Below are positions 19,472 to 39,403 of a stretch of DNA of 42,640 nucleotides, in pieces. The position numbers were made by a program, and so were the translations under genes. Within the stretch, counting starts at the first letter, position 1. The number at the start of each line of letters is the position of its first letter. The stretch is from a virus: positions 1-42,640 of the IMG/VR virus record IMGVR_UViG_3300032298_000109. The stretch is one strand, 5' to 3'. The notes beneath the pieces were generated by a model. It worked only from the letters and a program-made list of their open reading frames with translations. It was not told the origin of the DNA and did no database searches.

Positions 19472-19500
19472 TGTACAGCGAGAAAATTATGTGGTATAAT
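19472..19500 (+). promoter_or_regulatory. Promoter of the MazG-like and primase-like genes
   Basis: TGTACA (19472-19477), 17 nt, TATAAT (19495-19500) with TGTGG. It begins 2 nt after the gp43 stop. The box-plus-spacer start TGTACAGCGAGAAA is shared with the promoter at 20918. Confidence 0.88.
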
Positions 19501-20917: not shown

Positions 20918-20946
20918 TGTACAGCGAGAAATTAATATGGTATAAT
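20918..20946 (+). promoter_or_regulatory. Promoter of the nucleotide-modification operon
   Basis: TGTACA (20918-20923), 17 nt, TATAAT (20941-20946) with ATGG. It begins at the first base after the primase-like gene and lies 26 nt before the first gene of the eight-gene operon. Confidence 0.88.
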
Positions 20947-20972
20947 ATACCTATCAACGTTAAGGAAATAAC

Positions 20973-21356
20973 ATGCAAAAATCATACTCAAGACCATCAG
21001 CAAATATCCTGCTAGAAGCTGCAGAAATCCAAGAGAAAAAAGGTCAAGATTATAATAATGCAGCTAGTCGTGTTGAACAAGCTGACTATTATCCACGAGG
21101 CGTAGTCTCTATCCTTGATATCATTCATGCAAAATACCTTCGCATGGTTTCAGTCCTTGAAACTATGGAAGCTGGTGGTAATGTCAACTACGAATCAGTC
21201 GAAGACTCAGCACTTGATATGATTAACTATGCATCATTCGTAGTTGCTTATATGCGCGGTGAAGTACCTGGTCAAAAACCTGATCGTGATATCTTCAACA
21301 AACCAAATCCGCAAAATCAAGCACTTATCCCAACAAAGTTTAGAGGTACTAAGTAA
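20973..21356 (+). CDS. Nucleotide modification-associated domain 1 (DUF1599-like) protein
   Basis: 127 residues. EIQEKKGQDYNNAASRVEQ, YPRGVVSILDIIHAKYLRM and NYESVEDSALDMINYASFVV carry the acidic/lysine pattern of DUF1599, also called nucleotide modification-associated domain 1, a predicted all-helical NTP pyrophosphatase-like family. In published genome surveys the family travels with base-modification genes, and here it stands directly before a dCMP hydroxymethylase (TAATG overlap). It might remove an unmodified or wrong nucleotide. Substrate unknown. First gene of the operon, behind its own promoter and an AAGG ribosome site. Confidence 0.7.
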   Translation: MQKSYSRPSANILLEAAEIQEKKGQDYNNAASRVEQADYYPRGVVSILDIIHAKYLRMVSVLETMEAGGNVNYESVEDSALDMINYASFVVAYMRGEVPGQKPDRDIFNKPNPQNQALIPTKFRGTK

Positions 21357-22060
21357 TGTATGTTATTCCAACAGTTTATGATATCCGTCATCAACTTATT
21401 AATGAGTTACACGATCAAAATTTTGTAACTGATAAATCTGGTGTTAAGACCATCGAGATAGTAAATGCTTCTTTCATAGCTGATGAAGCTGCAATCTTCG
21501 GCACACCAAATCAAGATTACATTGAACGTGAACTCAAATGGTATCGATCAATGTCACGCAACGTTAATGATATTCCTGGTGGTACTCCAGAAATATGGAA
21601 AATGGTTGCTGATAAAAATGGCATGATTAATTCTAACTATGGTTGGTGCATCTACTCAGAAGAAAATGGTTACCAATTTGCTAAAGTCGTAGAGGAACTA
21701 ATCAAGTCTCCGCTATCTCGTCGTGCAACAATGATCTATACTAGACCAAGTATGCATGAAGATTATAATAAGAATGGCATGTCTGATTTCATGTGTACTA
21801 ACACTGTACAATATTTCATTCGTAAAGGTAAACTCCACGCGTCAGTCTATATGAGGTCAAACGATGCTGTCTTCGGTTATAAAAATGATTATGCTTGGCA
21901 AAAATATGTTCAACAACAAGTCCTTGAGGCAATCAATGGCAAGCGTTCTACTGTATATGATCTTGGTGATCTTTTCTGGAATGTCAGCTCTCTTCATGTC
22001 TATGAGCGGCATTTTAAACTAGTAGAAGATGAGGACGGAGAATATGGATCAAACACATAA
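21356..22060 (+). CDS. 42: Deoxycytidylate 5-hydroxymethyltransferase (gp42 type)
   Basis: 234 residues (T4 gp42 is 246). It transfers a hydroxymethyl group from methylene-tetrahydrofolate to dCMP. It aligns over most of its length with T4 gp42 as remembered: DKSGVKTIEIVNASFIADE, INSNYGWCIYSEENGYQ, IYTRPSMHEDYNKNGMSDF. The catalytic cysteine is in FMCTNT (C147, T4 C148). GYKNDYAWQKY has Asp178 (T4 Asp179), where thymidylate synthases have the Asn that selects dUMP; Asp is the dCMP-specific residue. So the sequence favours hydroxymethyl-dCMP over dTMP synthesis. It overlaps its neighbours on both sides. Confidence 0.9.
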   Translation: MYVIPTVYDIRHQLINELHDQNFVTDKSGVKTIEIVNASFIADEAAIFGTPNQDYIERELKWYRSMSRNVNDIPGGTPEIWKMVADKNGMINSNYGWCIYSEENGYQFAKVVEELIKSPLSRRATMIYTRPSMHEDYNKNGMSDFMCTNTVQYFIRKGKLHASVYMRSNDAVFGYKNDYAWQKYVQQQVLEAINGKRSTVYDLGDLFWNVSSLHVYERHFKLVEDEDGEYGSNT

Positions 22061-22493
22061 ATGGGATTTACGATACCTCCATTTAGCTAAGCACGTTGCA
22101 CAGTGGTCGAAAGATCCTAACACTAAAGTTGGTGCTGTAGCAGTTGGACATATGGGTCAAATCTTGGCTCAAGGATATAATGGATTCCCTCGAGGTATCT
22201 TAGATACTCCTGATCGCCTAAACGATAGACCAACTAAATATAAGTTCGTAGTTCATGCAGAGATGAACGTAATCTATAATGCAACATACAATGGAGTATC
22301 ATTGAATGGTGCTAGATTATATGTGTATGGTTTACCAATTTGCAGTGAGTGCGCAAAAGGTATCATTCAAGTTGGAATAGAAGAAGTTATCATCTCTCAA
22401 GAATGTTTGAATCTTCAACCACACTGGGTTGAAAGTTGGAAAATATCTGCAGACATGTTTGCTGAAGCTCGCATCCTTGTAAAAGTAATATGA
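22044..22493 (+). CDS. cd: Deoxycytidylate deaminase
   Basis: 149 residues from the ATG at 22044, chosen for the GGAG 5 nt upstream; an ATG at 22029 is also in frame. The zinc and catalytic motif HAEMN (71-75) and PICSEC (C100, C103) are intact. It converts dCMP to dUMP, the substrate for the ThyX encoded at 30104. NTKVGAVAVG and GYNGFPRGILD are typical of the family. It overlaps gp42 by 17 nt, so two enzymes that compete for dCMP are made from one coupled message. Confidence 0.92.
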   Translation: MDQTHKWDLRYLHLAKHVAQWSKDPNTKVGAVAVGHMGQILAQGYNGFPRGILDTPDRLNDRPTKYKFVVHAEMNVIYNATYNGVSLNGARLYVYGLPICSECAKGIIQVGIEEVIISQECLNLQPHWVESWKISADMFAEARILVKVI

Positions 22494-22903
22494 AATCTGT
22501 AAAAGATTTTGTTGATGTTACGTCTTCAGATGAGATCATTATACTTGGTCAGTGTCCATCCACAAAGACAGAACCATTTTCTAATGGAACTTTCGCTAGA
22601 TTAAAACGTTGGTGCGATACTGTTGGACTTACAGAATGGGATTTTCATAACGTTATACCTAATAAGATAAACAGTTATGATATGAAAGACGTGGACATCT
22701 TTGCATTACACGATGCTGTGTATAATAAGAAAGTTGTAATTGCACTCGGTGGATTTGTCTCTAAGGTGTGCACTAAATATAAGATAGATCATTATAAGAT
22801 CGATCATCCATCTCCAAGGAATAGGAATCTTAATGATCCTACCTATGAAAAGCAACTTTTAAAAAATTTAAAGAAATATTTGAATGAGCATAGAAACCAC
22901 TAA
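22490..22903 (+). CDS. Uracil-DNA-glycosylase-fold protein
   Basis: 137 residues. IIILGQCPS (16-24) resembles motif A (GxxPG-like) of the UDG superfamily. NGTFARLKRWCDTVGL matches the following helix, FHNVIPNK carries an Asn on the expected strand, and KVVIALGGFVSKV then HPSPRNR (106-112) resembles the motif B loop. The length is shorter than most family 4/5 glycosylases. The usual catalytic acid near motif A is not obvious, so activity may be altered. Inside a base-modification operon it could bind, read or excise a modified cytosine or uracil. Overlaps of 4 and 20 nt link it to its neighbours. Confidence 0.6.
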   Translation: MKSVKDFVDVTSSDEIIILGQCPSTKTEPFSNGTFARLKRWCDTVGLTEWDFHNVIPNKINSYDMKDVDIFALHDAVYNKKVVIALGGFVSKVCTKYKIDHYKIDHPSPRNRNLNDPTYEKQLLKNLKKYLNEHRNH

Positions 22904-24053
22904 ATACTATGACGAATATATTCGTTATTTCAATCTAGCTTTAGATCAACAAAAAAAGTGTAACGTATCTGACGAGCCTCCTTATGGTATGCTTGCGCAC
23001 ATAGATTCAGATATGAATGATGAACTATTTCATCACGTAGAACTATATGATGTAGTAGAACGTAAGTATGCTGGATTCTCACAGATCGTCAACGATTGTT
23101 TCTATGGTTGGACAGAAGAACATCCTTATTGGAAAAAGATGGAAGCTGGTAAAATTACCAGACAACGAGAAGTAGTTGCAAAAGATTGGACTGGTAAACA
23201 TTCTGATTTTAAATTACCAGAATGGTTGTACATCTTTATCCTTCATCGTGTTTGTGGTTCAGCTATCAACTATTCTACTAAACCATCTGGTTATCATAAC
23301 ACATTACTCTTCAACTTGCATAAAGCAAAGACGATTGAAGAGATGACTACGATCGTTAATAAACATCCTAAACCATTCTATACATCAGTAGGTTACCAAT
23401 TTCCAGCATTTCCAAAACCACCAGCTGGATCCAACTATAAACGAAATGGTGATTATTACCTAACAGAATTTGCACCACGCTTAGCGCGTGATCTTGCAGA
23501 GTTCTTAGAGAGTGGAGGTAAACGAGATCTTCGAGAGATCGGAGATTACATGTTGAAATGGAACGTAGATAATGGTCTTCGTCAATATCATTTCCAATAT
23601 GCAGCAGTCGTAGCAGATATTGCCGATTGGTATCCGCAATACGTCAATAAAGAATCGCCGTTTTATTATGGAACAAATGCAGTTGAGTGTATCTCTTACT
23701 TGGCTAAACCAACAAGCAAGATGAAACCAATTCAATTCTTAGATAAAGTTATGGAGAAGATTTATGAAGATGTTAAGTCATATCCATATAATGCTGAAGA
23801 TGTATGTTGTGACTTTATCCGATGGGTAGAAAACTATGTTAGACCTGGTGCAGATTACGATCACTTAGATTTCGATAATGTCTGGTCATCATGTAAGATT
23901 AAAGACCATCCATTTGGTAGACAACAAAATATGTTGAAACTAGGATTGGTAAAATCATTTAATGGTATGAAAGCACATCCTTCAGATGACGCAGTTATTA
24001 AACAAGCAGGTTTGACAGTAGAACAATATAAAGAACTATGCAAAACGATTTAG
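22884..24053 (+). CDS. Unrecognised modification-operon protein A (389 residues)
   Basis: No firm family. Visible features: YGMLAHIDSDMNDELFHHVEL near the N-terminus; a helical block ILHRVCGSAINYSTKPSGYHN; HKAKTIEEMTTIV; and a C-terminal FQYAAVVADIADWYPQYVN followed by FYYGTNAVECISYL. The CGSAINY...GYHN block recalls helical, glycosylase-derived proteins of phage hypermodification systems (the alpha-glutamyl/putrescinyl-thymine pyrophosphorylase clades), but this is a weak impression. The C-terminal pattern, an aromatic stretch, YP, V, S, then GT, recurs in the next gene, so the two may be distant paralogues. Overlaps of 20 and 16 nt show coupled translation. Confidence 0.55.
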   Translation: MSIETTKYYDEYIRYFNLALDQQKKCNVSDEPPYGMLAHIDSDMNDELFHHVELYDVVERKYAGFSQIVNDCFYGWTEEHPYWKKMEAGKITRQREVVAKDWTGKHSDFKLPEWLYIFILHRVCGSAINYSTKPSGYHNTLLFNLHKAKTIEEMTTIVNKHPKPFYTSVGYQFPAFPKPPAGSNYKRNGDYYLTEFAPRLARDLAEFLESGGKRDLREIGDYMLKWNVDNGLRQYHFQYAAVVADIADWYPQYVNKESPFYYGTNAVECISYLAKPTSKMKPIQFLDKVMEKIYEDVKSYPYNAEDVCCDFIRWVENYVRPGADYDHLDFDNVWSSCKIKDHPFGRQQNMLKLGLVKSFNGMKAHPSDDAVIKQAGLTVEQYKELCKTI

Positions 24054-25021
24054 CACAATTCATAGATGAGTCATATAATAATATTACATACGAAGGCACG
24101 TGTGATGTAGTATTAAAGAATGGTAAACCAACAGAAAGTTGGATGAAGGATTGGACACAAGAACAAAGGTTCGATAAGTTCTTTGAGTGGTGTAAAGCTT
24201 TCGATAAACGTGAAGATAAATTGTTGAAGGAAGATTATCAGATCTTCTCTCATCGTCTCCATTGGCATGAACATCCATTTGTAGATGTCATGAAACCAAT
24301 CACTGATAATAAGTTACGTCTATTCTATACACTTGTATTCTCATTTAGTAATGAACATTGGGGTACACTCATGTCATTGATGAATGATGGAATCCCTGTA
24401 ACACGTGAAAGATTTAAGACGCAACGACATGCGCGCAATGATCTATTCCAAATCTACTATCCTAAAGGCACTAACGTAAAAGATTGGTTGATTGATGGAC
24501 CAATGAAAGCAGCCGAAGATATTCATACTATCTTAGATGAACCCGCAAAGATGGGTCGACCATTTACGATGATGGAATTTGCTAAACGATTAGAAGCATA
24601 TTTCAAAGAACATCAGGGTTTTAGAAGTCCATTATATCCATGTAAAAATACAGCGCGTTATATGGCATTCGCTTATCCACATTTAGTAGATCCAGAATCT
24701 GTGTTGTTTGGTGGTACAGGTCATTTTGATGGCATGCAACAAATATTTGGTGGTACGAATCTAAACGGTAAAGTTAAGTATGAGATTGGTCCTAATGGAG
24801 AGTTTACAGCCACAAATAAGTATGGTATAATATGGCTAGAGCAGATGAATTTATTAGCTAATGATACTCGTAATCCAATGACTGTACAGAAGATGTTGAA
24901 TGTAGAGGATAAAACTTGTTTCTTCTATAAACACATAGCTATTAGTCACGGAGTAAAATCACCAACAAAACGTATACCATATACATGGATTTTTCCAAAA
25001 GAATTTAGCCTGAAAAAATGA
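24038..25021 (+). CDS. Unrecognised modification-operon protein B (327 residues)
   Basis: No firm family. The middle has HRLHWHEHPFVDV and LRLFYTLVFSFSNEHWGTLM. The C-terminal half has YPCKNTARYMAFAYPHLVD and VLFGGTGHFDGMQQIFGG, which parallels the AVVADIADWYP...YYGTNA region of the gene before it. CKNTARYMA followed by a GTG turn would suit a nucleotide- or DNA-binding helical domain, but this is speculative. An internal promoter lies in its last 220 bases. ATGA overlap with the next gene. Confidence 0.55.
   Translation: MQNDLAQFIDESYNNITYEGTCDVVLKNGKPTESWMKDWTQEQRFDKFFEWCKAFDKREDKLLKEDYQIFSHRLHWHEHPFVDVMKPITDNKLRLFYTLVFSFSNEHWGTLMSLMNDGIPVTRERFKTQRHARNDLFQIYYPKGTNVKDWLIDGPMKAAEDIHTILDEPAKMGRPFTMMEFAKRLEAYFKEHQGFRSPLYPCKNTARYMAFAYPHLVDPESVLFGGTGHFDGMQQIFGGTNLNGKVKYEIGPNGEFTATNKYGIIWLEQMNLLANDTRNPMTVQKMLNVEDKTCFFYKHIAISHGVKSPTKRIPYTWIFPKEFSLKK
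24803..24831 (+). promoter_or_regulatory. Intragenic promoter for the SGNH/PLP end of the operon
   Basis: TTTACA (24803-24808), 17 nt, TATAAT (24826-24831) preceded by TATGG, inside the coding region of protein B. The architecture equals that of the intergenic promoters. It could raise expression of the last two genes of the operon. Confidence 0.6.
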
Positions 25022-26001
25022 ACGTCTTAACAAACCCGATTAGTAATGTACCTCAACTAAAGAACTCTCACGTCCTTGGTTGGTCACAAGTATGGGCAGA
25101 TCAATTAGATGCTGCTATCGATCATAAGTGTTCTCCAAATATTGCTAATGCTTCAATCGTTTATATTGAACACGGTGTAAACTTTGGTGGTACACTTAAC
25201 TTATTTGGTGGCGCAACTAAAGAGATCTATGATAGAATCAATAGAGTTGCAGCACATCCTAATGTAGTATCATTAGACTTCGACATGCCAGATTGGGGAG
25301 ACCAACTTAAGAAACGAATTGGTGCACCGACTACATATACAGGTATCACTGAACAATGGTGTGATGCTTTGTCTTTGCGCCTATCAAAAGTACAATCTGT
25401 CAAACAACAAGACTTATTACAAGTATCATCTAAGTTCGACGGTATTTCTGTTGGTGATTCTCATACTCCAGCATTCTCGCGTTCTACTGATATTGTACTA
25501 AGAGAAAATGGTAAGACACTATACGGCACTCTTAAACGCGGATTAATCACAGAGTTTAGAGGATTGAAACCATTTGGTAATGTAACATTTTGTTATGGAT
25601 CGATTGATGTTCGTCATCATATCCTTCGTCATGAGAACTTTAACTTAGATGATATGTTAGATGAGTATGTTAGACAAGCTGTCACCATACAAAAAGAACA
25701 TAGATGTAATATCTCATTCACAACTCCAGTTCCAGTTGAATACGAAGATCGTAGATTACCAAAGACTGGTTACTATAAAGGCACTCCATTCTTTGGATCA
25801 AGACATGCTCGTTTAGGCCTTACATACCGAATTATCGAAGGACTAAATAAAAGAAAGGTGAATGTTATTATGCCACCTGAAGAGTGGTACAAGATGGACG
25901 GTGAGAAGTATGCAAAGACTTATATGGAAAATAGTTCAAGCGTCCATATCTCTCCACAATATTATAGAAGAAAAGATTGGGGACAAACTTGTTTAGCATA
26001 A
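25018..26001 (+). CDS. SGNH/GDSL-hydrolase-like protein
   Basis: 327 residues with two parts. The N-terminal 130 residues (GWSQVWADQLDAAIDHKC, then SIVYIEHGVNFGGTLNLFGG) are unrecognised. From about 140, GISVGDSHTPAFSR (nucleophile Ser148 in GDSH), CYGSIDVRHHIL (193-203, block III-like) and NSSSVHISP (about 305-313, a candidate catalytic His) follow the SGNH order. Such folds act as esterases, acyltransferases or, in phages and glycan loci, unassigned transferases. It sits between protein B and the PLP enzyme and could add or remove an acyl-type group on a modified base. The catalytic Asp before the His is not evident. Confidence 0.55.
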   Translation: MNVLTNPISNVPQLKNSHVLGWSQVWADQLDAAIDHKCSPNIANASIVYIEHGVNFGGTLNLFGGATKEIYDRINRVAAHPNVVSLDFDMPDWGDQLKKRIGAPTTYTGITEQWCDALSLRLSKVQSVKQQDLLQVSSKFDGISVGDSHTPAFSRSTDIVLRENGKTLYGTLKRGLITEFRGLKPFGNVTFCYGSIDVRHHILRHENFNLDDMLDEYVRQAVTIQKEHRCNISFTTPVPVEYEDRRLPKTGYYKGTPFFGSRHARLGLTYRIIEGLNKRKVNVIMPPEEWYKMDGEKYAKTYMENSSSVHISPQYYRRKDWGQTCLA

Positions 26002-26951
26002 CAGAAGATACAGGTAACAAAGATATTCCTATGGGAATGGATCGCAGCGATGCGAAGAAATATTATGAAGAATTGTGGGGAACATTTACATCTAGAATAT
26101 CGGATCCAATAGTAGAATCATATGGAGATAAGTTTATACTGAGAGCTGATCTTGCACCAGGAGGATTGAAAGCTTTTGGTGGAGAAAGAGTGATAGCACA
26201 ATCGAAGTATAACATATTGACATATTGCGCACCTCGACAAGGTCATGCTATGGATGCTATCTCAATGTTAGCAGAGATGTATAATAAAAAAGTAGTATTC
26301 TTTTGTCCATCATCTAAAGAAGTATCAGATCATCAAGGTGCATTGTTTGCCTATCCTCATGTTGATATGAGATTTGTACGTATTGCTGCAATGCCAGTTT
26401 TAAATCAATATGCTAAGAAATGGGCAAAAGAAAACAATGCACAATATTTGCCATTAGGTTTAAAAGATATGCCAATGGTTACAGCAGGTCTTGTTAATAT
26501 GGCTAATAAAATAACCAAACAATTAGGGAAAGAACCTACACAAATTTGGTGTGCAGTATCAACAGGTACGATGACGCGAGCATTACAAATTGGATGGCCG
26601 ACAGCAGAAGCACATGGTATTGCAGTGGCACGTAATATACATAAAGGTGAAATTGGTGATGCAAAGGTTATAACAGCAACTATACCTTTCCTTAAAGCAT
26701 GCATTACAAAAAATCCCATGCCATTTCCATCTACAGCAGCATATGATGCGAAAGCTTGGGATTCTTTCGTTGAGCATGGAAAAGCAGGATCTATCTTCAT
26801 CAACGTTGGTGCTGATGAACATATCAATAGAAACTTATCGAAAGTAGATATATCTAACATCAATAGTTACAGAGAATGGCATGATATGGAAGATTTAAAA
26901 CGTAATAGAGCATTTAAAAACAGTGTACAAATAAGTGCAAATATGGTATAA
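25977..26951 (+). CDS. PLP-dependent enzyme, fold type II (TrpB/ACC-deaminase-like)
   Basis: 324 residues from a TTG at 25977; an ATG at 26031 is an alternative that removes 18 residues. GGLKAFGGERVIAQ could hold the PLP lysine. CAPRQGHAMDAISMLAEMYNK with VVFFCPSS matches the gNh.qA..A......vvfvP strand-helix of the fold, and CAVSTGTMTRAL is the Gly-rich phosphate-binding loop. These enzymes do beta-replacement, elimination or deamination on amino acids. In thymidine-hypermodified phages PLP enzymes act on amino-acid-decorated bases; a similar step on hydroxymethylcytosine is my inference. Last gene of the operon. The next promoter lies inside its end. Confidence 0.7.
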   Translation: MGTNLFSITEDTGNKDIPMGMDRSDAKKYYEELWGTFTSRISDPIVESYGDKFILRADLAPGGLKAFGGERVIAQSKYNILTYCAPRQGHAMDAISMLAEMYNKKVVFFCPSSKEVSDHQGALFAYPHVDMRFVRIAAMPVLNQYAKKWAKENNAQYLPLGLKDMPMVTAGLVNMANKITKQLGKEPTQIWCAVSTGTMTRALQIGWPTAEAHGIAVARNIHKGEIGDAKVITATIPFLKACITKNPMPFPSTAAYDAKAWDSFVEHGKAGSIFINVGADEHINRNLSKVDISNINSYREWHDMEDLKRNRAFKNSVQISANMV

Positions 26952-29950: not shown

Positions 29951-30114
29951 TGTATAAAGTAACTTATTATATAAACGGTTCGACAGTACAATTCAAATGG
30001 TTTAAAACTTTCCACGAAGCTACGGATTATTGTATTAATAAAATACCAACCGGAGAAGTACTAGAGATTAAAAAATATGATGACCCGGAGAAATTTCACC
30101 ATCATGGAGATTAA
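29950..30114 (+). CDS. Small protein between gp41 and thyX
   Basis: 54 residues: MYKVTYYINGSTVQFKWFKT, then a helix FHEATDYCINKI and a strand GEVLEIKKY. It looks like a small alpha-beta fold. Start in a TAATG overlap; end overlaps thyX by 11 nt. The tail is His-rich (KFHHHGD). No family recognised. Confidence 0.6.
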   Translation: MYKVTYYINGSTVQFKWFKTFHEATDYCINKIPTGEVLEIKKYDDPEKFHHHGD

Positions 30115-32517: not shown

Positions 32518-33486
32518 GTGGCACAAAGTCAATATAAGAAACTTACACCCAGTGAACTATTAAAACCTGGGCGAGAAGGCAGAGGACCAACATTAATCAA
32601 GAAGATTGAAGAAGGCCAAGATTTTGTTTTATTTTCCGGCGAAGTTGTGAAGTTTAAAAAAGATGCTGCTGTTCTTGGAGCGATAGCTCAAGGTTTAAAA
32701 CAAGGCAGCAATGATTTATTAAATGCAATTCGTTTGAAGAGCACAACAAATAAAGAATACAAGATATCAGATCTTGCAAAGACTGCAGAATTCGGCGGTA
32801 AAGGTGCTGGATCTGGCACAGTAGCTGAGTCAATAGCGTTAACAGATATCCAAGCTAAGTTGCAAGCACTCTTAAATAAAGAAAACAAACCGTTTATTAA
32901 AGTTGACATAAATGGTAAAGTAGTTCAGTGTTCTAACTTTCAGAAAACTGACGGAACACCTAAGAGCGACTTTCATATATTAGATCCTAAAGGTAAAGAG
33001 GTTGCATGGATCTCCCATAAAAAAGGTACACGTGCAAAAGATTTCCAACAGTACGGAGGCATGATCGAGTTGTCTCCATCAGAAGAGCTAGACGTATTTG
33101 TAAAAGATGTGAAGAATATATTATCGACTGATGGTTCTCCTGGTGTTTTACCTATGAAGACTGCATATTATAGAAAAGTTAAAGATAAACGTACACGTAT
33201 GAAAACTCTTTTTGGTAAAGATTTTAAAACTTCAGGTCCTGACTCCAGACAAAACATTGATGTGTTGTATCAAGGAGTATTAGATTTTAAAAAGGGTACC
33301 GGTGGAATTTACACCATCACTAGCAGTCATACAGTATTTCATGGTAAAGAACCAACGGGTGATTACGAACCATATTATTATATTAGACCAGAACAAGCTA
33401 AGACACAATTCGGAGTTAGAGGCGGTAGATTTTTTATCGTAGCTAAATTAACAGCAATTTCAAATAAGAATGCCAAAGAGATATGA
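32518..33486 (+). CDS. Putative late protein with restriction-endonuclease-like motifs
   Basis: 322 residues from the GTG at 32518, which has GGAG 7 nt upstream. A longer frame from 32425 would begin before the late promoter and inside the terminator, so it is rejected. GTPKSDFHILDPKGKEVAWIS followed by HKKG resembles the (P)K-x-D...(E/S)xK layout of PD-(D/E)xK-like nucleases of the KaDi...iSlK type, followed by AKDFQQYGGM. Ser stands where Glu is usual, so activity is uncertain. It heads a late operon and overlaps the next gene by 4 nt. Confidence 0.5.
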   Translation: MAQSQYKKLTPSELLKPGREGRGPTLIKKIEEGQDFVLFSGEVVKFKKDAAVLGAIAQGLKQGSNDLLNAIRLKSTTNKEYKISDLAKTAEFGGKGAGSGTVAESIALTDIQAKLQALLNKENKPFIKVDINGKVVQCSNFQKTDGTPKSDFHILDPKGKEVAWISHKKGTRAKDFQQYGGMIELSPSEELDVFVKDVKNILSTDGSPGVLPMKTAYYRKVKDKRTRMKTLFGKDFKTSGPDSRQNIDVLYQGVLDFKKGTGGIYTITSSHTVFHGKEPTGDYEPYYYIRPEQAKTQFGVRGGRFFIVAKLTAISNKNAKEI

Positions 33487-33866
33487 TAACTTTCAAAGAA
33501 TACTTACAAGAAGAACACGGCGCAGGAGAATGGGGAACAACCAAACTTACAAAGCGTTATAAGAAAGATACTCCTGGACAAGACGATAAAGAAGATATCA
33601 AAGAATATGCTATTGATGCTAAAGGACACAAGTCATCTACTGGCGGATTAACACAAAAAGGCGTTGATGCTTATAAGAGAGAAAATCCTGGCAGTAAACT
33701 TCAAACAGCCGTGACTACTAAACCATCTAAATTAAAACCAGGAAGTAAAGCTGCTAATCGTCGTAAATCATTTTGTGCTCGTATGAGCGGTGTTGATGGT
33801 CCTATGAAAGACGAAAAAGGTAGACCAACTAGAAAAGCTTTAGCTTTAAGAAAATGGAATTGTTAA
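33483..33866 (+). CDS. Late protein with capsid-targeting-like N-terminus (DUF6321-like)
   Basis: 127 residues. The start MITFKEYLQEE resembles the T4 internal-protein capsid-targeting sequence (MKTYQEFI-x-E). The C-terminus KAANRRKSFCARMSGVDGPM followed by KDEKGRPTRKALALRKWNC is a conserved basic block seen in many aquatic phages. Two Cys and many Lys/Arg suggest DNA contact. Packaging into the head is inferred from the N-terminal motif. ATGA and TAATG overlaps join it to its neighbours. Confidence 0.6.
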   Translation: MITFKEYLQEEHGAGEWGTTKLTKRYKKDTPGQDDKEDIKEYAIDAKGHKSSTGGLTQKGVDAYKRENPGSKLQTAVTTKPSKLKPGSKAANRRKSFCARMSGVDGPMKDEKGRPTRKALALRKWNC

Positions 33867-35002
33867 TGATTACTTTTAAAGATTTCTTATTTGAGGCTAC
33901 ATCAGTAGATGATGAGATGCTTGGTCATCTAACACATACTAAAGATTTACCTCATGAAGATTCACGATATGGCAATGCAGCTATAAATCTAATACACCAG
34001 TTTCATAAGCTTCGTAAAGGCGAGAAGAGCGAAGTGTCTGCTTCATTGAAAACCGATGGTGGTTCATCTGTGCACGTAGTACACGATGCTAAGGGAGTAG
34101 GTGTATCAGATAAACATAGAATTGCAAGAGGAGTTATCGCAAGAACTCCTGAAGAAGTAGATCAGCATTTTGGGCATCAACCACAATATGCACATGCATT
34201 AAAACATCTATTGAAACACGGTCATGAGATCGTAAGTAAAGGACACCACATTCAGGGTGATTTGTTACATACACCAAAAGATGAAACTACCAAACAAAGT
34301 AAAGATACTACTACTACAACCCCAAACAGAATCACATATAAAGCAAAGACAAAAGCTCCTATTGGATTGGCTATACATACTGAAGTAACTAAAGGTGTTG
34401 CTCATGCACCATCTAAAGGTGCTGTGAAGAAAAGTAGTAACGTATTTGTTCCAGCATATGCATTTAATCATAAAGAACATCCATACACAGCTGAAGATCA
34501 AGCACACGTAGAACATCATTTGACTGCTGCTAAAAAATTAATGGACCAGCATTCAACTCATCACTTAACACCAGAACATACTAATAATTTTACTATATAC
34601 TTGAATAGAACTACACGAAGAGGTGAAGCACCTTCAATTGCTGGATATAAAAAGCATTTGGCTGGCGAAGGAGAAAAGGCAGCTGGTAAATTAAAGACCG
34701 CTGTTGGTAAAGAAAAGGCTATGTCGAAGTTTAATGCATTATCTAGTCATGTCGATGCACATAAAGAACATTTCCAACGTTCATTAGATATCCGTCACCA
34801 CTTGGGTCAAGCTACTGAACACGTATTAAAAGGTGTAACTCATCCTGATATGGAAACATCTATCGATGGTAAGAAATCTCCAGGAGAAGGTATAGTATTA
34901 CAGAAAAAACACAATGGAAAATTAAGACCAGTTTCGAAGCTTGTTCCTGTAAAAGTTTCTAATGCTATCTTAAACAATCCAAGATTTGCTAAGGACAAAT
35001 AA
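33866..35002 (+). CDS. Late protein with ligase/nucleotidyltransferase-like motifs and capsid-targeting-like N-terminus
   Basis: 378 residues from the ATG in the TAATG overlap; the frame opens 12 nt earlier. MITFKDFLFEA is a capsid-targeting-like start with a candidate cleavage after FE. SASLKTDGGSS (KxDG at 62-65), HHIQGDLLHTP (about 128-138) and GEGIVLQKK with SKLVPVK (about 348-370) resemble motifs I, III, IV and V of ATP-dependent ligases and RNA-capping nucleotidyltransferases. The middle is rich in His and Lys. An injected nucleotidyltransferase would be unusual. The fold is inferred from motif order. Confidence 0.5.
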   Translation: MITFKDFLFEATSVDDEMLGHLTHTKDLPHEDSRYGNAAINLIHQFHKLRKGEKSEVSASLKTDGGSSVHVVHDAKGVGVSDKHRIARGVIARTPEEVDQHFGHQPQYAHALKHLLKHGHEIVSKGHHIQGDLLHTPKDETTKQSKDTTTTTPNRITYKAKTKAPIGLAIHTEVTKGVAHAPSKGAVKKSSNVFVPAYAFNHKEHPYTAEDQAHVEHHLTAAKKLMDQHSTHHLTPEHTNNFTIYLNRTTRRGEAPSIAGYKKHLAGEGEKAAGKLKTAVGKEKAMSKFNALSSHVDAHKEHFQRSLDIRHHLGQATEHVLKGVTHPDMETSIDGKKSPGEGIVLQKKHNGKLRPVSKLVPVKVSNAILNNPRFAKDK

Positions 35003-35622
35003 TGCAAACCTTTTCAAACTTCCTTAAGGAAGAAGCTGAAGCCAAACATGCAACTCTTGCTTACGGTCGCATGAATCCTCCAACCTCTGGTCATCTTAAA
35101 GTAATCAATAAGGTGCAAGAAGTTGCTAAGAAACATGGAGGTGAGCATCACATGATTGTATCACATTCTGAAGATTCTAAAAAGAATCCATTATCTGGTG
35201 AACAGAAGGTTAAACATCTTAAACGTTATGCACCTGGTGCAAACATCCGTTCATCATCAAAAGAAAATCCCACATTGTTCTCACATGCTGCTGAGCTACA
35301 CAAGAAAGGTGTAACACACCTACATGTAGTTGCTGGCTCAGATCGTGTACCAGAATATAAGAAGAAGTTTAAAGAATTAAATGGTAAACCAAATAAAGAA
35401 GGTCATGTACCATTCCATTTTAAAAAGATCACTGTGCATTCTGCAGGTACTAGAGATCCTGATGCTGAAGGCGATACGGGTATGTCAGGTACAAAAATGC
35501 GAAGTCATGCTGCGAATAAAGACTTCAAGTCTTTCCGTAAAGGTGTACCAGCACATGTCTCAGATGAACATACACACGAATTAATGAATGATGTACGCAA
35601 GGGTATGGGTCATAACGATTAA
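35002..35622 (+). CDS. Cytidylyltransferase-fold nucleotidyltransferase with capsid-targeting-like N-terminus
   Basis: 206 residues. After MQTFSNFLKEEAEA, the sequence LAYGRMNPPTSGHL (19-32) holds the TxGH form of the HxGH nucleotide-binding motif. THLHVVAGSDRVPEY is the central strand. GMSGTKMRSHA (about 158-168) is the ISSTxxR-type phosphate-binding motif. The catalytic set looks complete, as in NMN/phosphopantetheine adenylyltransferase-like enzymes; the substrate cannot be told. It shares one base with the gene before it (TAATG). Confidence 0.75.
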   Translation: MQTFSNFLKEEAEAKHATLAYGRMNPPTSGHLKVINKVQEVAKKHGGEHHMIVSHSEDSKKNPLSGEQKVKHLKRYAPGANIRSSSKENPTLFSHAAELHKKGVTHLHVVAGSDRVPEYKKKFKELNGKPNKEGHVPFHFKKITVHSAGTRDPDAEGDTGMSGTKMRSHAANKDFKSFRKGVPAHVSDEHTHELMNDVRKGMGHND

Positions 35623-35636
35623 CTGAAAGCAATATC

Positions 35637-35909
35637 ATGTCTACAAAACTCCAGCGCAAAAAGAAACAGCGCACTGGCTGGTATGAATTAGAGTATGAAG
35701 AATTAGTTAAGCCTAAGAAAGGTCCGACAAAAAGGACTGATACTAGGAAGTACTATTCTACTCAAGTCACATATGTAAGCATGAGAGAAGAAGAGTATTT
35801 AAACTTAGCAGATAGGATAATTGGTCTTTCCCCAGAATCACATAGGATGACTATATTGACATCAGAAGGTCAACAAGAATTTGATCAAGATGATGATGAA
35901 ATAGATTAG
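35637..35909 (+). CDS. Small unrecognised protein (90 residues)
   Basis: MSTKLQRKKKQRTGWYELEY at the start, then a basic stretch (KPKKGPTKRTDTRKYY), a strand-rich middle (YSTQVTYVSMREEEYL) and an acidic tail (EFDQDDDEID). The charge split between halves is marked. Last gene before a late promoter. No family recognised. Confidence 0.6.
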   Translation: MSTKLQRKKKQRTGWYELEYEELVKPKKGPTKRTDTRKYYSTQVTYVSMREEEYLNLADRIIGLSPESHRMTILTSEGQQEFDQDDDEID

Positions 35910-35925
35910 TGTTGTAGCCTAAACT

Positions 35926-36051
35926 ATTATAAATAAGAGTGAACCAGTTATTAAATTTGATGGAATTGAAATAGAAGCTGTTAACTGGGACCGCTTCGTA
36001 AGATGTTCAATTCGATTATTATCACACGTGGTTAATGGGAAAATATGTTAA
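35926..36051 (+). CDS. Possible short ORF without an ATG/GTG/TTG start
   Basis: Open frame after a TAA, with ATT (35926) or ATA (35929) as the only early candidate starts. It encodes EPVIKFDGIEIEAVNWDRF then VRCSIRLLSHVVNGKIC, protein-like in composition and running 7 nt into the next gene. The late promoter at 35928-35935 overlaps its 5' end, so the message would start inside it. It could be a remnant, an ATT-initiated peptide, or chance. Low confidence. Confidence 0.25.
   Translation: MINKSEPVIKFDGIEIEAVNWDRFVRCSIRLLSHVVNGKIC
35928..35935 (+). promoter_or_regulatory. T4-type late promoter
   Basis: TATAAATA in a 135-nt gap, about 110 nt before the gene at 36045. Third intergenic copy of the late box in the window. 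Confidence 0.75.
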
Positions 36052-36491
36052 AGTTTAAAGAATATTCGCAGGAATTCGACCTACAACTTGAGTCTGTACA
36101 ACTGACAGATGAAGAAGTATCTGAACTCAATGAAGTTTTAGATACGTCTGCTCGAATCAAACGAAGACAACAATTCATTCGTCGTGGTGCACGCGTTGCC
36201 ATGGCTCGTAAAGTACAGCAACGTAGATTTGCTAGTCCTGAACGATTAAAACTTAGATCTAGACAGAGGGCAAAGAACCTCTTAATAAGACGCCTTTATC
36301 AAGGCCGTAGCAGATCTGAAATCCCCCTAGCCCAAAGAAAACAAGTGGATATTAAATTAGGCCGCATGAAGAATGCTGTCACTCGTATATCTCAAAAATT
36401 AATTCGTCGTGTCAGACAAGAAGACATCGCGAGAAAAACAAAAAATAGAAATTTACCAAAATTTGATAGTAAGAGCCAAGCAGGATTTTAA
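36045..36491 (+). CDS. Arg-rich late protein with capsid-targeting-like N-terminus
   Basis: 148 residues. MLKFKEYSQEFDLQLE is a variant of the shared N-terminal motif. The rest is very rich in Arg/Lys: RIKRRQQFIRRGARVAMARK, RQRAKNLLIRRLYQGRSRSE, RISQKLIRRVRQEDIARK. Predicted helical and DNA-binding, suited to an internal head or core protein. Similar Arg-rich proteins are conserved in aquatic T4-like phages. Role inferred from charge, motif and late context. Confidence 0.6.
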   Translation: MLKFKEYSQEFDLQLESVQLTDEEVSELNEVLDTSARIKRRQQFIRRGARVAMARKVQQRRFASPERLKLRSRQRAKNLLIRRLYQGRSRSEIPLAQRKQVDIKLGRMKNAVTRISQKLIRRVRQEDIARKTKNRNLPKFDSKSQAGF

Positions 36492-36493
36492 TT

Positions 36494-37438
36494 ATGAAAC
36501 AATTTAAGGAATACCTTAAAGAAACCAGTGGTAAAGTTGTATTGACATTTGGTCATTTCAACCCGCCAAACATTGAGAATGAAAAGTTAATTAATAAAGT
36601 ACATGAGTCTGCTGAAGGTGGACCATATAGGATTTATACATCGCAAGAATGTGACCAACACTCTCCATTAGAGTACAACACTAAAGTCAAATTTATGCGT
36701 AAGATATTCCCTCGTCATGCACGTTCTATAATTAGTGACTCAAAGATAGTAGATTTATATGATGCATTAGATTCTTTATACGAACAAGGTTATACTAAAG
36801 TCGATTTAGTAATGCCTAATATTCCTAAAGAATTGAAAGAAGAAGTTAACAATTATAATAGATCTCGATATAATTTTAAGTCAATAGAGTTTATCTCTGT
36901 TAATACACATGATATTGAACCAAAAATAATTGAAGCTGCTAAAAATAATAACTTTGAATTGTTTGTTAAAAGTTTACCTTCGACATTAAAAGAAGGACAT
37001 AAGTTATATAATGCTCTTCGTTCAGCACTTGGTTTAAAAGAAACATTTAACTTTAGACAACATATTCAACTTCCTACATTATCCAAAGAACGCGAAGCTT
37101 ATGTAAACGGAGAGTTGTTTAAAGTAGGTGATGTAGTTGAAGTTAAAGAGACTAAAGAGATTGGTCAAATTCAAAGACTCGGATCAAATTATGTAATCAT
37201 TGAAACATATGAAGGCGCAAAACAACGTAAATGGTTGCGTGATGTTATCAAAGTTGAAGAAGCAGTTATCAATCAGATGCTCGAAAAGATGGGTAATCCT
37301 TGTTGGACTGGTTACACAATGGTTGGCACTAAAGAAAAAGGTGGTAAAACAGTTCCAAACTGTGTACCAGTAAATAAGAAAAACAAATCAAAAATTAAGT
37401 CATTCAAAGAAGACTTATCAACATTTAATGGGAAATAA
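36494..37438 (+). CDS. Degenerate nucleotidyltransferase-like late protein with capsid-targeting-like N-terminus
   Basis: 314 residues in three parts. First, MKQFKEYLKE, the shared motif. Second, VVLTFGHFNPPNIENEKLI aligns with the GRMNPPTSGH loop of the 35002 gene but has lost the T/HxGH residues, so this domain is probably inactive. Third, a small SH3/KOW-like domain (GELFKVGDVVEVKETKEIGQ then IQRLGSNYVIIET), ending in MGNPCWTGYTMVGTKEKGGK and a VPNCVP tail, a Cys-containing module common in aquatic phage proteins. Likely a packaged or structural paralogue of the active enzyme. Confidence 0.6.
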   Translation: MKQFKEYLKETSGKVVLTFGHFNPPNIENEKLINKVHESAEGGPYRIYTSQECDQHSPLEYNTKVKFMRKIFPRHARSIISDSKIVDLYDALDSLYEQGYTKVDLVMPNIPKELKEEVNNYNRSRYNFKSIEFISVNTHDIEPKIIEAAKNNNFELFVKSLPSTLKEGHKLYNALRSALGLKETFNFRQHIQLPTLSKEREAYVNGELFKVGDVVEVKETKEIGQIQRLGSNYVIIETYEGAKQRKWLRDVIKVEEAVINQMLEKMGNPCWTGYTMVGTKEKGGKTVPNCVPVNKKNKSKIKSFKEDLSTFNGK

Positions 37439-37440
37439 AA

Positions 37441-37704
37441 ATGTCAGACAGATTAATTCAAGTACTTGCACAAGAAGAAACTCTAGCTGCTAATACAGCA
37501 ACTAATGTATCACTAGCCCACGTGGTAAAGATACATGTTGGTGGTACAGAAAGAAAGTTTACAGTTAAAGATGCTAGCGGAAATACAATAGGATCTACCA
37601 CGACTCACGCTAATCAGACGCTTTATATTCGTAAAAAAGCTACTGATACAGTAGAAGCTAATGGCGCAGGTTGCTTAGCAACATCAATAGCATTCGGAGA
37701 TTAA
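37441..37704 (+). CDS. Small beta-rich late protein (87 residues)
   Basis: MSDRLIQVLAQEETLAANTA, then VVKIHVGGTERKFTVKDASG and TLYIRKKATDTVEANGAG. Strand-rich, with the size and Gly/Thr content of small head-decoration or fibre-associated proteins, but without a recognised family. It lies 2 nt after the previous stop and 1 nt before the next gene, inside the late block. Confidence 0.55.
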   Translation: MSDRLIQVLAQEETLAANTATNVSLAHVVKIHVGGTERKFTVKDASGNTIGSTTTHANQTLYIRKKATDTVEANGAGCLATSIAFGD

Positions 37705-37705
37705 T

Positions 37706-39403
37706 ATGAAAAGTCTTAAGGATTTTTTAGAAGCTCGAATGATAGCAACAGGAGATTTCAAAATCTCTGCATCTGGTCGTAAAGTACGTCGTCTAATTAA
37801 AGTTGGTGATGATAGTTATAATAAAGCCGATGATCTTGATAAAGACGGTGATGTTGATAAAGACGATAGACGCTTAGCTAAAGAAGAAGTCGAACAGATC
37901 GAAGAAGCTACAGTCAAATCTGCTAGCTATTCTTGGGGTACAATGAAGACTGTACATCATGGTAAAGACTTCTCAATCCCTCTTCATCCAGAACACCACA
38001 AACCAATCGCAGCATTAAAGCACGGCGAATCTCATAGTTTTAAAGATGAGACTGGTAATAAGTGGAAAGCTACACGTGATAATGATACAGTTCATTTCCA
38101 CGGTGGTTCATATGGCACACAAAAGACTTCAGTTAAACATGACGCTATGAAAGAGTCTGTTGAGATTACAGAAGCTGAAGAACATTTGGTTCATGTATCC
38201 GATGGTTCTAAGTATGATGAAGTCCCACACCCAAAAGATATTGAACATGTTAAGACTGGTGCAATGCATCATGGTGGTAAATGGGATGGTCATTCAGATA
38301 AAGGCGCATTCTTTAAGTTTAAATCAAAAGAAGATGCACAACACTTTGTAAGTCATGTTAACAAATGCCCACACCGTTCATGTTCAGCAGATCTACACGA
38401 GTCAACAGAACAAGTTAATGAAGCATCTGATAAACAAGATTCACGTCTATTACAGCTTGCTCGCTTAGGTTTATTAGATAAAAATGATGTAGCAATATTT
38501 AGAAATGCTATGCAAACATTTAAAGCTGATAAACAATTATCGATTAAACAACGTAATATGTTATTGAGTGTTTATAACGACTTAGTGAATATGGTAACAG
38601 GCGATGATGCTATGTTTGCCCGCGCTAAGTTAGATGTACAAAAAGAAGATACAGATTTAGAAGAAGGTAAAGTATATGATCCATTCACAAAGAAAATGGT
38701 TCCTACTAAACCAATCAAAGTTCAAGCTGGCGGTGGTGCAACTAGAAATGGTGTTCCTATAGAAACAGGTCCTTCAAAGTATAAAGAAAAATTAAACAAA
38801 GAAGAAGTACAAATTGATGAGTTATCTAAAGGATTAGTTGCTAGATACGCAAATAAAGTAGCAAAAACTACACAAGCTAATTATGATAAATCTAAAGATA
38901 AATTTCAATTCTCGTCAGGTAGACAAGATGGAATGAAAAATGCAGTTAAGAGATTAACTAAAGAAGAAGTACAGATCGATGAAATTTCTAAAGATACATT
39001 AGCTTCATATATTCCTAAGGCTGCTAAAGATGCACGTATTCATGGTCAAATTGCCACCGACTTTGAAAATAGAGGTAAGACAGCTAGAAAACCAGGCTCA
39101 AAAGATAGTTGGAATAGATTATCTATGAAGTATAAAGAGAAAGCTTGGAAGCGTGATGATGGTATATCTAAAGCGGTTAATAAGTTAACTAAAGAAGAAA
39201 CACAATCTGAAGGTTACTATAAAGATATCGATACTAACGCAAAAGAAGATGAGCGTTTAGGTTCATGGAAAAAAGAAACACCATGGCGTAAAATAAAACC
39301 TGGTTCTGATACAGTTACAGACAAATCAGGTGCAACACATACTCCAATGTCTAAAGTTCGTCATCTAGCTAGATTGGCGTTAAAGAAAACAACTAGTAAG
39401 TAA
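37706..39403 (+). CDS. Large modular late protein, possible prohead-protease polyprotein
   Basis: 565 residues. It starts MKSLKDFLEARM (capsid-targeting-like with a candidate LEA cleavage). An EF-hand-like loop, LDKDGDVDKDDRR, lies near residue 45. Several modules then follow, separated by acidic linkers that end in T4 gp21-like cleavage sites: QIEEA, EITEA, QVNEA, DLEEG. Two later linkers read KEEVQIDELSK and KEEVQIDEISK, each opening a similar helical module (LVARYANKVAK; LASYIPKAAKD). Contains a Cys/His-rich patch (CPHRSCSADLH). Cleavage and injection are inferred from motif spacing. Confidence 0.55.
   Translation: MKSLKDFLEARMIATGDFKISASGRKVRRLIKVGDDSYNKADDLDKDGDVDKDDRRLAKEEVEQIEEATVKSASYSWGTMKTVHHGKDFSIPLHPEHHKPIAALKHGESHSFKDETGNKWKATRDNDTVHFHGGSYGTQKTSVKHDAMKESVEITEAEEHLVHVSDGSKYDEVPHPKDIEHVKTGAMHHGGKWDGHSDKGAFFKFKSKEDAQHFVSHVNKCPHRSCSADLHESTEQVNEASDKQDSRLLQLARLGLLDKNDVAIFRNAMQTFKADKQLSIKQRNMLLSVYNDLVNMVTGDDAMFARAKLDVQKEDTDLEEGKVYDPFTKKMVPTKPIKVQAGGGATRNGVPIETGPSKYKEKLNKEEVQIDELSKGLVARYANKVAKTTQANYDKSKDKFQFSSGRQDGMKNAVKRLTKEEVQIDEISKDTLASYIPKAAKDARIHGQIATDFENRGKTARKPGSKDSWNRLSMKYKEKAWKRDDGISKAVNKLTKEETQSEGYYKDIDTNAKEDERLGSWKKETPWRKIKPGSDTVTDKSGATHTPMSKVRHLARLALKKTTSK

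Follow-up and report, generated by a model that had tools for sequence, protein, structure and literature searches.

The window analyzed here, a whole stretch of 42,640 nt covering positions 1-42,640 of the IMG/VR virus record IMGVR_UViG_3300032298_000109, comes from a T4-like virus of bacteria and contains an operon of eight genes (g1 to g8, 20973-26951, + strand), which probably encodes the making of a hypermodified, amino-acid-derived cytosine in virion DNA by way of g2, g7, g5/g6, and g8. Some hypermodification of cytosine beyond hydroxymethylcytosine (hmC) is very likely, and its derivation from an amino acid is likely. That virions contain a decorated cytosine, and how it would be activated and which amino acid and final base are involved, are predictions from the genes. 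The elements of the operon are as follows.

20918-20946, + strand: promoter-like site TGTACA-N17-TATAAT with a TG before the -10 (extended -10), predicted only, by consensus scan.
20973-21356, + strand: g1, DUF1599/NMAD1-like protein (nucleotide modification associated domain 1); Pfam 0.0012, below the cut-off; phrog_1485 1.3e-18.
21356-22060, + strand: g2, dCMP hydroxymethylase, orthologue of T4 gp42 (57% identity); Pfam thymidylate-synthase family 1.7e-15.
22029-22493, + strand: g3, dCMP deaminase; Pfam 2.3e-19; phrog_174 3e-40.
22490-22903, + strand: g4, small protein of the uracil-DNA-glycosylase superfamily; Pfam PF03167 1.8e-6.
22884-24053, + strand: g5, distant paralogue of g6 and probable amino acid:DNA transferase-type protein, from profile comparison with g6.
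24038-25021, + strand: g6, predicted protein of the amino acid:DNA transferase (ADDT) / 5-hydroxymethyl-dU (5-hmdU)-kinase-helical fold, from an AlphaFold2 model and Foldseek.
25018-26001, + strand: g7, SGNH-hydrolase-fold protein with an N-terminal alpha/beta domain; AlphaFold2 model with a predicted local distance difference test (pLDDT) of 92, Foldseek against the PDB.
25977-26951, + strand: g8, fold-type-II pyridoxal-phosphate (PLP) enzyme of the M6 gp52 family; phrog_7093 6.8e-65; Pfam PALP 0.0026.

The operon is real: its eight open reading frames (ORFs) are codirectional and their junctions overlap, in order, by 1, 32, 4, 20, 16, 4, and 25 nt. An earlier note on this DNA had described such an operon, and the ORF coordinates as well as the recurrence of the same genes together in related viral contigs confirmed it. 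Its overlaps of 4-25 nt at six junctions and 1 nt at one were nearly right; the single-base junction stood, and g2 and g3 overlap by 32 nt, or by 17 nt if g3 starts at the ATG of its sixth codon. The start codon of g8 is TTG and its start is uncertain. Related viral contigs were fetched through queries with g5, g6, or g7, yielding about 210 loci, and since tblastn found g1-g8 together in fetched viral contigs at 25-98% identity, the operon is not a product of chance. The single promoter expected 5' of the eight genes corresponds to the predicted promoter-like site at 20918. Near-identical TGTACA-17-TATAAT sites with a TG before the -10 also occur at 19472 and 26924, before neighbouring transcription units, and as a class promoter-like sites were in no excess over shuffled sequence in the consensus scan. 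Each of the three copies lies 5' of a gene block, and they may form a class of early or middle phage promoters.

The identity of the modified base was read from g2. Its catalytic Cys147 was invariant in an alignment of 17 rows, and its Asp178, equivalent to T4 Asp179, was Asp in all 16 hydroxymethylase rows, including T4 and members of both payload groups (the g5/g6 and c44 loci described below). This position corresponds to the dUMP-contacting Asn of thymidylate synthases, and an Asp at this site specifies dCMP in gp42. The thymidine-hypermodifying phage M6, which makes hydroxymethyl-dUMP, carries Asn there. With the thymidylate-synthase fold family, the catalytic Cys, and an Asp replacing the dUMP-contacting Asn, g2 is of the T4 gp42 kind, as the earlier note had stated, and not of the hydroxymethyl-dUMP synthase kind known from thymidine hypermodification. 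Synthesis of hydroxymethyl-dCMP by g2 is thus supported by family membership. Next to g2, g1 recurs across related loci by tblastn; its NMAD1/DUF1599 assignment was weak in Pfam, while those of g3 and g4 held. Both g3 and g4 probably have pool or repair functions rather than a role in decoration, and g4 occurs in both payload groups and is missing from some loci. The window also encodes a separate thymidylate synthase at 30077 (phrog_85), which by eye is of the ThyX type.

Structure prediction and profile search, which the earlier note had proposed for g5 to g8, placed g6 in the ADDT/HMUDK-helical fold, g7 in the SGNH fold, and g8 in the M6 gp52 family, and for g5 gave a profile likeness to g6 only. 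The two proteins formerly listed as unrecognised, g5 and g6, are thereby explained as transferase-like. The AlphaFold2 model of g6 reached a pLDDT of 89.6, and Foldseek matched it in BFVD, a library of predicted viral structures, to a phage protein named "Amino acid:DNA transferase domain-containing" (E 8.4e-29, 54% identity). A second ADDT-named protein of 385 aa matched with a probability of 1.00 at 12% identity. Further matches were Pplase1 (1.00) and the 5-hmdU kinase helical-domain proteins of phiRSL1 (1.00) and PhiW-14 (0.96). The g6 model therefore shares the fold of the ADDT (PF18724) / HMUDK_hel (PF18723) superfamily, to which g5 is linked by profile only. In profile comparison, g6 and the M6 kinase-helical (HMUDK) profile gave P 0.04 with two motifs in register, GTGHFDGM with AGPGAIRGL and EDKTCFFYKH with EHTLCEFDKY; the accepted pair HMUDK-ADDT gave 0.03 in the same test. 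The profile alignment of g5 with g6 spanned about 130 columns, with P between 4e-4 and 2e-3, and g5 is probably a distant paralogue of g6 and an amino acid:DNA transferase-type protein. Comparison of g5 with ADDT, HMUDK, and the C-terminal domain of the g7 protein of phage 44RR gave no signal, a PDB sequence search with g5, g6, and g7 returned chance-level matches only, and neither g5 nor g6 had a tblastn match among 50,697 phage records. Amino acid transfer to a hydroxymethylpyrimidine in DNA is a predicted role of g5/g6, drawn from sequence comparison and modelling.

The claimed fold-II PLP enzyme at the end of the operon was verified: g8 matches phrog_7093 and aligns with M6 gp52, with which it has in common an invariant Lys65, the SxG serine-glycine loop, and the C-terminal YDxKxW...NxG. 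Against PDB sequences, g8 was cysteine-synthase-like. In M6, gp52 adjoins the ADDT gp51 (PF18724, 1.4e-46) and the radical-SAM gp53. In thymidine hypermodification, the PLP enzymes are reported to be decarboxylases. The link that the earlier note drew to the thymidine-hypermodification toolkit is upheld by this family membership of g8 and by the predicted fold of g5/g6. Among the relatives of g8 are proteins combining ParB, DNA methyltransferase, and PLP parts in Erythrobacter and Microcystis phages (L002:10786-13200 and L003:10387-12705), and these suggest another PLP-linked DNA modification.

For g7, the best Foldseek matches of the model in the PDB were SGNH esterases and the peptidoglycan O-acetyltransferase PatB, with probabilities of 1.00 or 0.99. 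Residues invariant in 36 diverse members include GDSH (Ser148), Asp197, Arg199, and His310, so that fold, GDS serine, and C-terminal His agree with an SGNH hydrolase, and the SGNH-like protein of the earlier note is borne out. Scattered weak Pfam matches to GDSL lipase also occur among the members. In the Aeromonas phages 44RR and 31, the g7 domain makes up the N-terminal portion of a protein of 795 aa with an HMUDK_hel-like C-terminal part; the latter scores 0.0036, and those of relatives score 1.3e-6 and 9.8e-9, above the cut-off. Besides 44RR, about 60 loci have g7 fused to, or close to, an HMUDK_hel-like protein. The fusion parallels M6, in which the 5-hmdU kinase is a P-loop protein, gp54, adjoining the helical protein gp55, and by this analogy g7 would stand in the place of the P-loop kinase. 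An SSF-family sodium:solute symporter adjoins the fusion gene in 44RR (L004:6402-7922) and could import the attached metabolite. A reading of g7 as a T4 beta-glucosyltransferase, raised by weak Pfam matches in 6 of 38 members (best 0.012), was rejected, as the model has an SGNH fold; the beta-glucosyltransferase match of one traced genome falls within its g7 gene.

Searches for the enzymes of known pathways covered the 12 records of group A: the window itself plus 11 contigs related to it, which are 49-256 kb long and possibly incomplete. The models for T4 beta- and alpha-glucosyltransferase (PF09198, PF11440) scored above the cut-off in the T4 control only and in none of the 12 records; the one match below the cut-off (0.0019) lies within the g7 gene of one relative. 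The absence of a glycosyltransferase noted earlier for the window thus holds for the T4 type and extends to the 11 relatives, and the alpha-/beta-glucosyltransferase pair of T4 glucosylated hmC is not found. A query with M6 gp54 for the 5-hmdU kinase matched in the M6 control only, apart from a weak match of 31 residues (0.007), and no convincing 5-hmdU DNA kinase of P-loop plus helical domain was found in the 12 records. No radical SAM protein was recognised in the operon system, unlike in M6. Since no 5-hmdU-type kinase was found, the activation step must differ from that of the thymidine pathway.

Gene order was shuffled among related loci, with g5-g6-g7-g8, g7-g5-g6-g8, g5-g8-g7, g7-g8-g5, and more. 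Among 92 g7-centred loci with at least 4 kb on either side, g5 occurred in 70 and a protein termed c44 in 22, and neither in 0, a count biased towards co-occurrence as the loci were found with g5, g6, g7, and c44 queries. In this sister module g7 is kept, and g5/g6/g8 are replaced by the HMUDK_hel-like c44 protein, which matches PF18723 above the cut-off, and a myo-inositol-phosphate synthase. Myo-inositol-1-phosphate synthase (PF01658, 1.5e-25) was present in 60 of 62 c44 loci versus 0 of 213 g5/g6 loci, and c44 loci often also carry a HAD-like phosphatase, an FkbM-type methyltransferase, and a C5-methyltransferase-like gene. On the tree of g7, payload states must have changed at least eight times, and well-supported branches force several of these changes; g7 is therefore the stable part, and the payloads are swapped. 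A bacterial genome scan gave only six matches, all in draft or metagenome-bin contigs, so the system is essentially a phage one.

Several further gene contexts were observed around g7. The synthase near g7 and the HMUDK_hel-like protein (L231:2960-4114, L226:5942-7156, L254:5623-6807, and about 57 more) possibly points to an inositol-decorated cytosine. A C5-cytosine-methyltransferase-like gene (5e-17) lies beside g7/c44 (L231:7260-8483, L281:10836-12047), in loci where cytosine should already be hydroxymethylated. An HhH DNA glycosylase-like ORF, identified by eye, is directly upstream of g5 or g7 (L172:2468-3223, L175:703-1494, L085:6018-6815). A third context, of the sugar type, was seen in phiAS4 (L005:5766-7945) and L061 (9848-12125), where g7 adjoins UDP-galactopyranose mutase and a glycosyltransferase-like ORF.

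In the proposed pathway, g2 would make hydroxymethyl-dCMP, which would be polymerised into DNA as in T4. After replication, g7 would act on hmC in DNA, probably by activating or conditioning the hydroxymethyl group. That g7 is the activating enzyme is a tentative assignment, made because g7 accompanies every payload and, in 44RR, is joined to a kinase-helical-like domain in one protein. Next, the transferase-fold proteins g5 and g6 would attach an amino acid at the 5-methylene of cytosine, and g8 would trim it, for example by a decarboxylation leaving an amino group. Nucleotide pool or repair would be supported by g1, g3, and g4, and the product would replace glucosyl-hmC as an anti-restriction coat. 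Activation without a kinase may proceed by g7 placing an acyl group on the hydroxymethyl as a leaving group, or by direct elimination of water via a covalent C6 adduct, as in C5-methyltransferases acting on hmC in vitro; the data favour neither route. A wider scheme, in which g7 replaces the kinase as hmC activator on a modular platform with swappable payloads, either amino-acid-derived (g5/g6/g8) or myo-inositol (c44 with inositol-phosphate synthase), giving two bases not described in the literature searched, is more doubtful still. The cytosine hypermodification proposed in the earlier note is largely supported by the enzymes (a dCMP-type hydroxymethylase, the ADDT-type fold of g6, an M6-type PLP enzyme, an SGNH protein, and no T4-type glucosyltransferase), while the decoration itself is deduced from them. 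Of its suggestion that the PLP and SGNH proteins act on the decoration, both enzyme families were confirmed, but the part common to other hmC phages is g7, not the PLP enzyme.

Several observations weigh against this pathway. It is not fixed, since g6 is absent from many related loci, where it is dispensable, and g8 from a few. The models PF18723 and PF18724 had no match in the 12 group-A records, the g5 and g6 family members match neither, and Pfam gave no useful match for any of these members; the link of g5/g6 to ADDT/HMUDK_hel is suggested by the structure of g6 and weak profile scores. As SGNH proteins are mostly esterases, g7 could add or remove acyl groups on something else. Moreover, a GT2-like ORF occurs in 1 of the 11 related group-A contigs, some relatives have a GT2-like gene in the vicinity, and one relative (L061) has GT2 together with UDP-galactopyranose mutase. 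Other glycosyltransferases are possible because the group-A contigs may be incomplete.

It is unlikely that the modification is sugar-like, with g5/g6 carrying or attaching a polyol or sugar, g7 as a finishing O-acyltransferase or esterase, and the PLP enzyme making the precursor. SGNH enzymes commonly act on acylated sugars, and g7 adjoins UDP-galactopyranose mutase and a glycosyltransferase-like ORF in phiAS4, GT2 and GLF in L061, and inositol-phosphate synthase in the c44 group; however, the inositol synthase is found in none of the 213 window-like loci, no T4-type glucosyltransferase exceeds the cut-off in the window and its 11 relatives, and g8 groups with the M6 hypermodification PLP enzyme, as g6 does with amino acid:DNA transferases. 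Less probable again is DNA with hmC that is plain or glycosylated in a conventional way, in which case g5-g8 would be an unrelated metabolic or anti-host module travelling with gene 42. While g2-g3-g1 alone would yield hmC DNA and synteny in T4-like replication blocks can be passive, g5-g8 stay with g2 despite rearranged order and different neighbours, g5 or c44 is found in 92 of 92 g7-centred loci of the query-biased sample, and the folds of g5-g8 are those of DNA-base hypermodification enzymes. The mixing of pool-type genes g1-g4 with g5-g8 would fit hypermodification of the free nucleotide, hydroxymethyl-dCMP, ahead of its polymerisation, which is very improbable as the ADDT and 5-hmdU kinase families sharing the g6 fold act on DNA in thymidine hypermodification (PMC6449724).

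Compared with known systems, the pathway predicted for the operon resembles the thymidine pathway of Pseudomonas M6, Salmonella ViI, and Delftia phiW-14 in making a hydroxymethylpyrimidine first and in its transferase-fold proteins and gp52-family PLP enzyme, and M6 also has a dCMP deaminase like g3. It differs in its base, which is cytosine as read from the Asp rather than Asn of g2, and in lacking an M6-type P-loop 5-hmdU kinase, a Pfam-ADDT match, and a recognised radical SAM protein, in place of which it has an SGNH protein and a divergent pair of proteins with the transferase fold. With T4 it shares the dCMP hydroxymethylase and the T4-like replication block. The T4 stretch between gene 43 and uvsX contains imm, gene 42, beta-glucosyltransferase, and segA, and as g1-g8 lie between the same two genes they fill the slot where T4 makes and glucosylates hmC; whereas T4 has alpha- and beta-glucosyltransferases, g5-g8 occupy this slot here. 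Aeromonas phages 44RR, 31, and relatives (ORF233c) share the g7 domain at 30% identity and have a second thymidylate-synthase-family gene of 234 aa, but their g7 is fused as described, with the symporter beside it, and tblastn found no g5, g6, or g8. The CmoX/CmoY carboxymethylcytosine-glycine system of Synechococcus phage S-B43 likewise places an amino acid, glycine, on a modified phage cytosine, but uses carboxy-SAM, a C5-methyltransferase, and an ATP-dependent amide ligase rather than a dCMP hydroxymethylase and transferase-fold proteins (PMC12783734). The modifications of 5-hydroxymethyl-dU or -dC listed in that paper are glycosylation, amination, and carbamoylation (PMC12783734). Pathways like the one proposed are known for thymine, and no report was found for cytosine; amino-acid coupling to hmC was not described in the literature searched, which omitted key thymidine-hypermodification and bioinformatics papers (Lee 2018/2022, Iyer 2013), and priority for a cytosine ADDT system is not certain.

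The surrounding window carries a T4-like replication block of clamp, clamp loader, a small clamp-loader-like ORF, a RegA-like ORF, and DNA polymerase, followed 3' of the polymerase by MazG-like and primase-like genes, g1-g8, and UvsX-like and gp41-like genes; the names RegA, UvsX, gp41, and polymerase were given by eye from sequence and synteny. Further downstream (33483-39400), the ORFs at 33483, 33854, 35002, 36045, 36494, and 37706 share an N-terminal peptide, M-x-x-F-K-E-Y/F-L-x-E, which resembles the capsid-targeting leader of T4 internal proteins, and two of these six are cytidylyltransferase-like.

The DNA base content of 44RR-type phages and their metagenomic relatives is testable directly by nucleoside mass spectrometry. 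If the proposed pathway is true, amino-acid decoration of phage DNA would extend beyond thymidine, with a cytosine branch that starts from hydroxymethylation as in T4, recurs across a few hundred viral contigs, activates its base by a new chemistry, and has swappable payloads. Such a branch would be a source of new DNA-modifying enzymes, would predict a new target for modification-dependent restriction, and would account for the way in which hmC may be protected in T4-like phages that have no T4-type glucosyltransferase.

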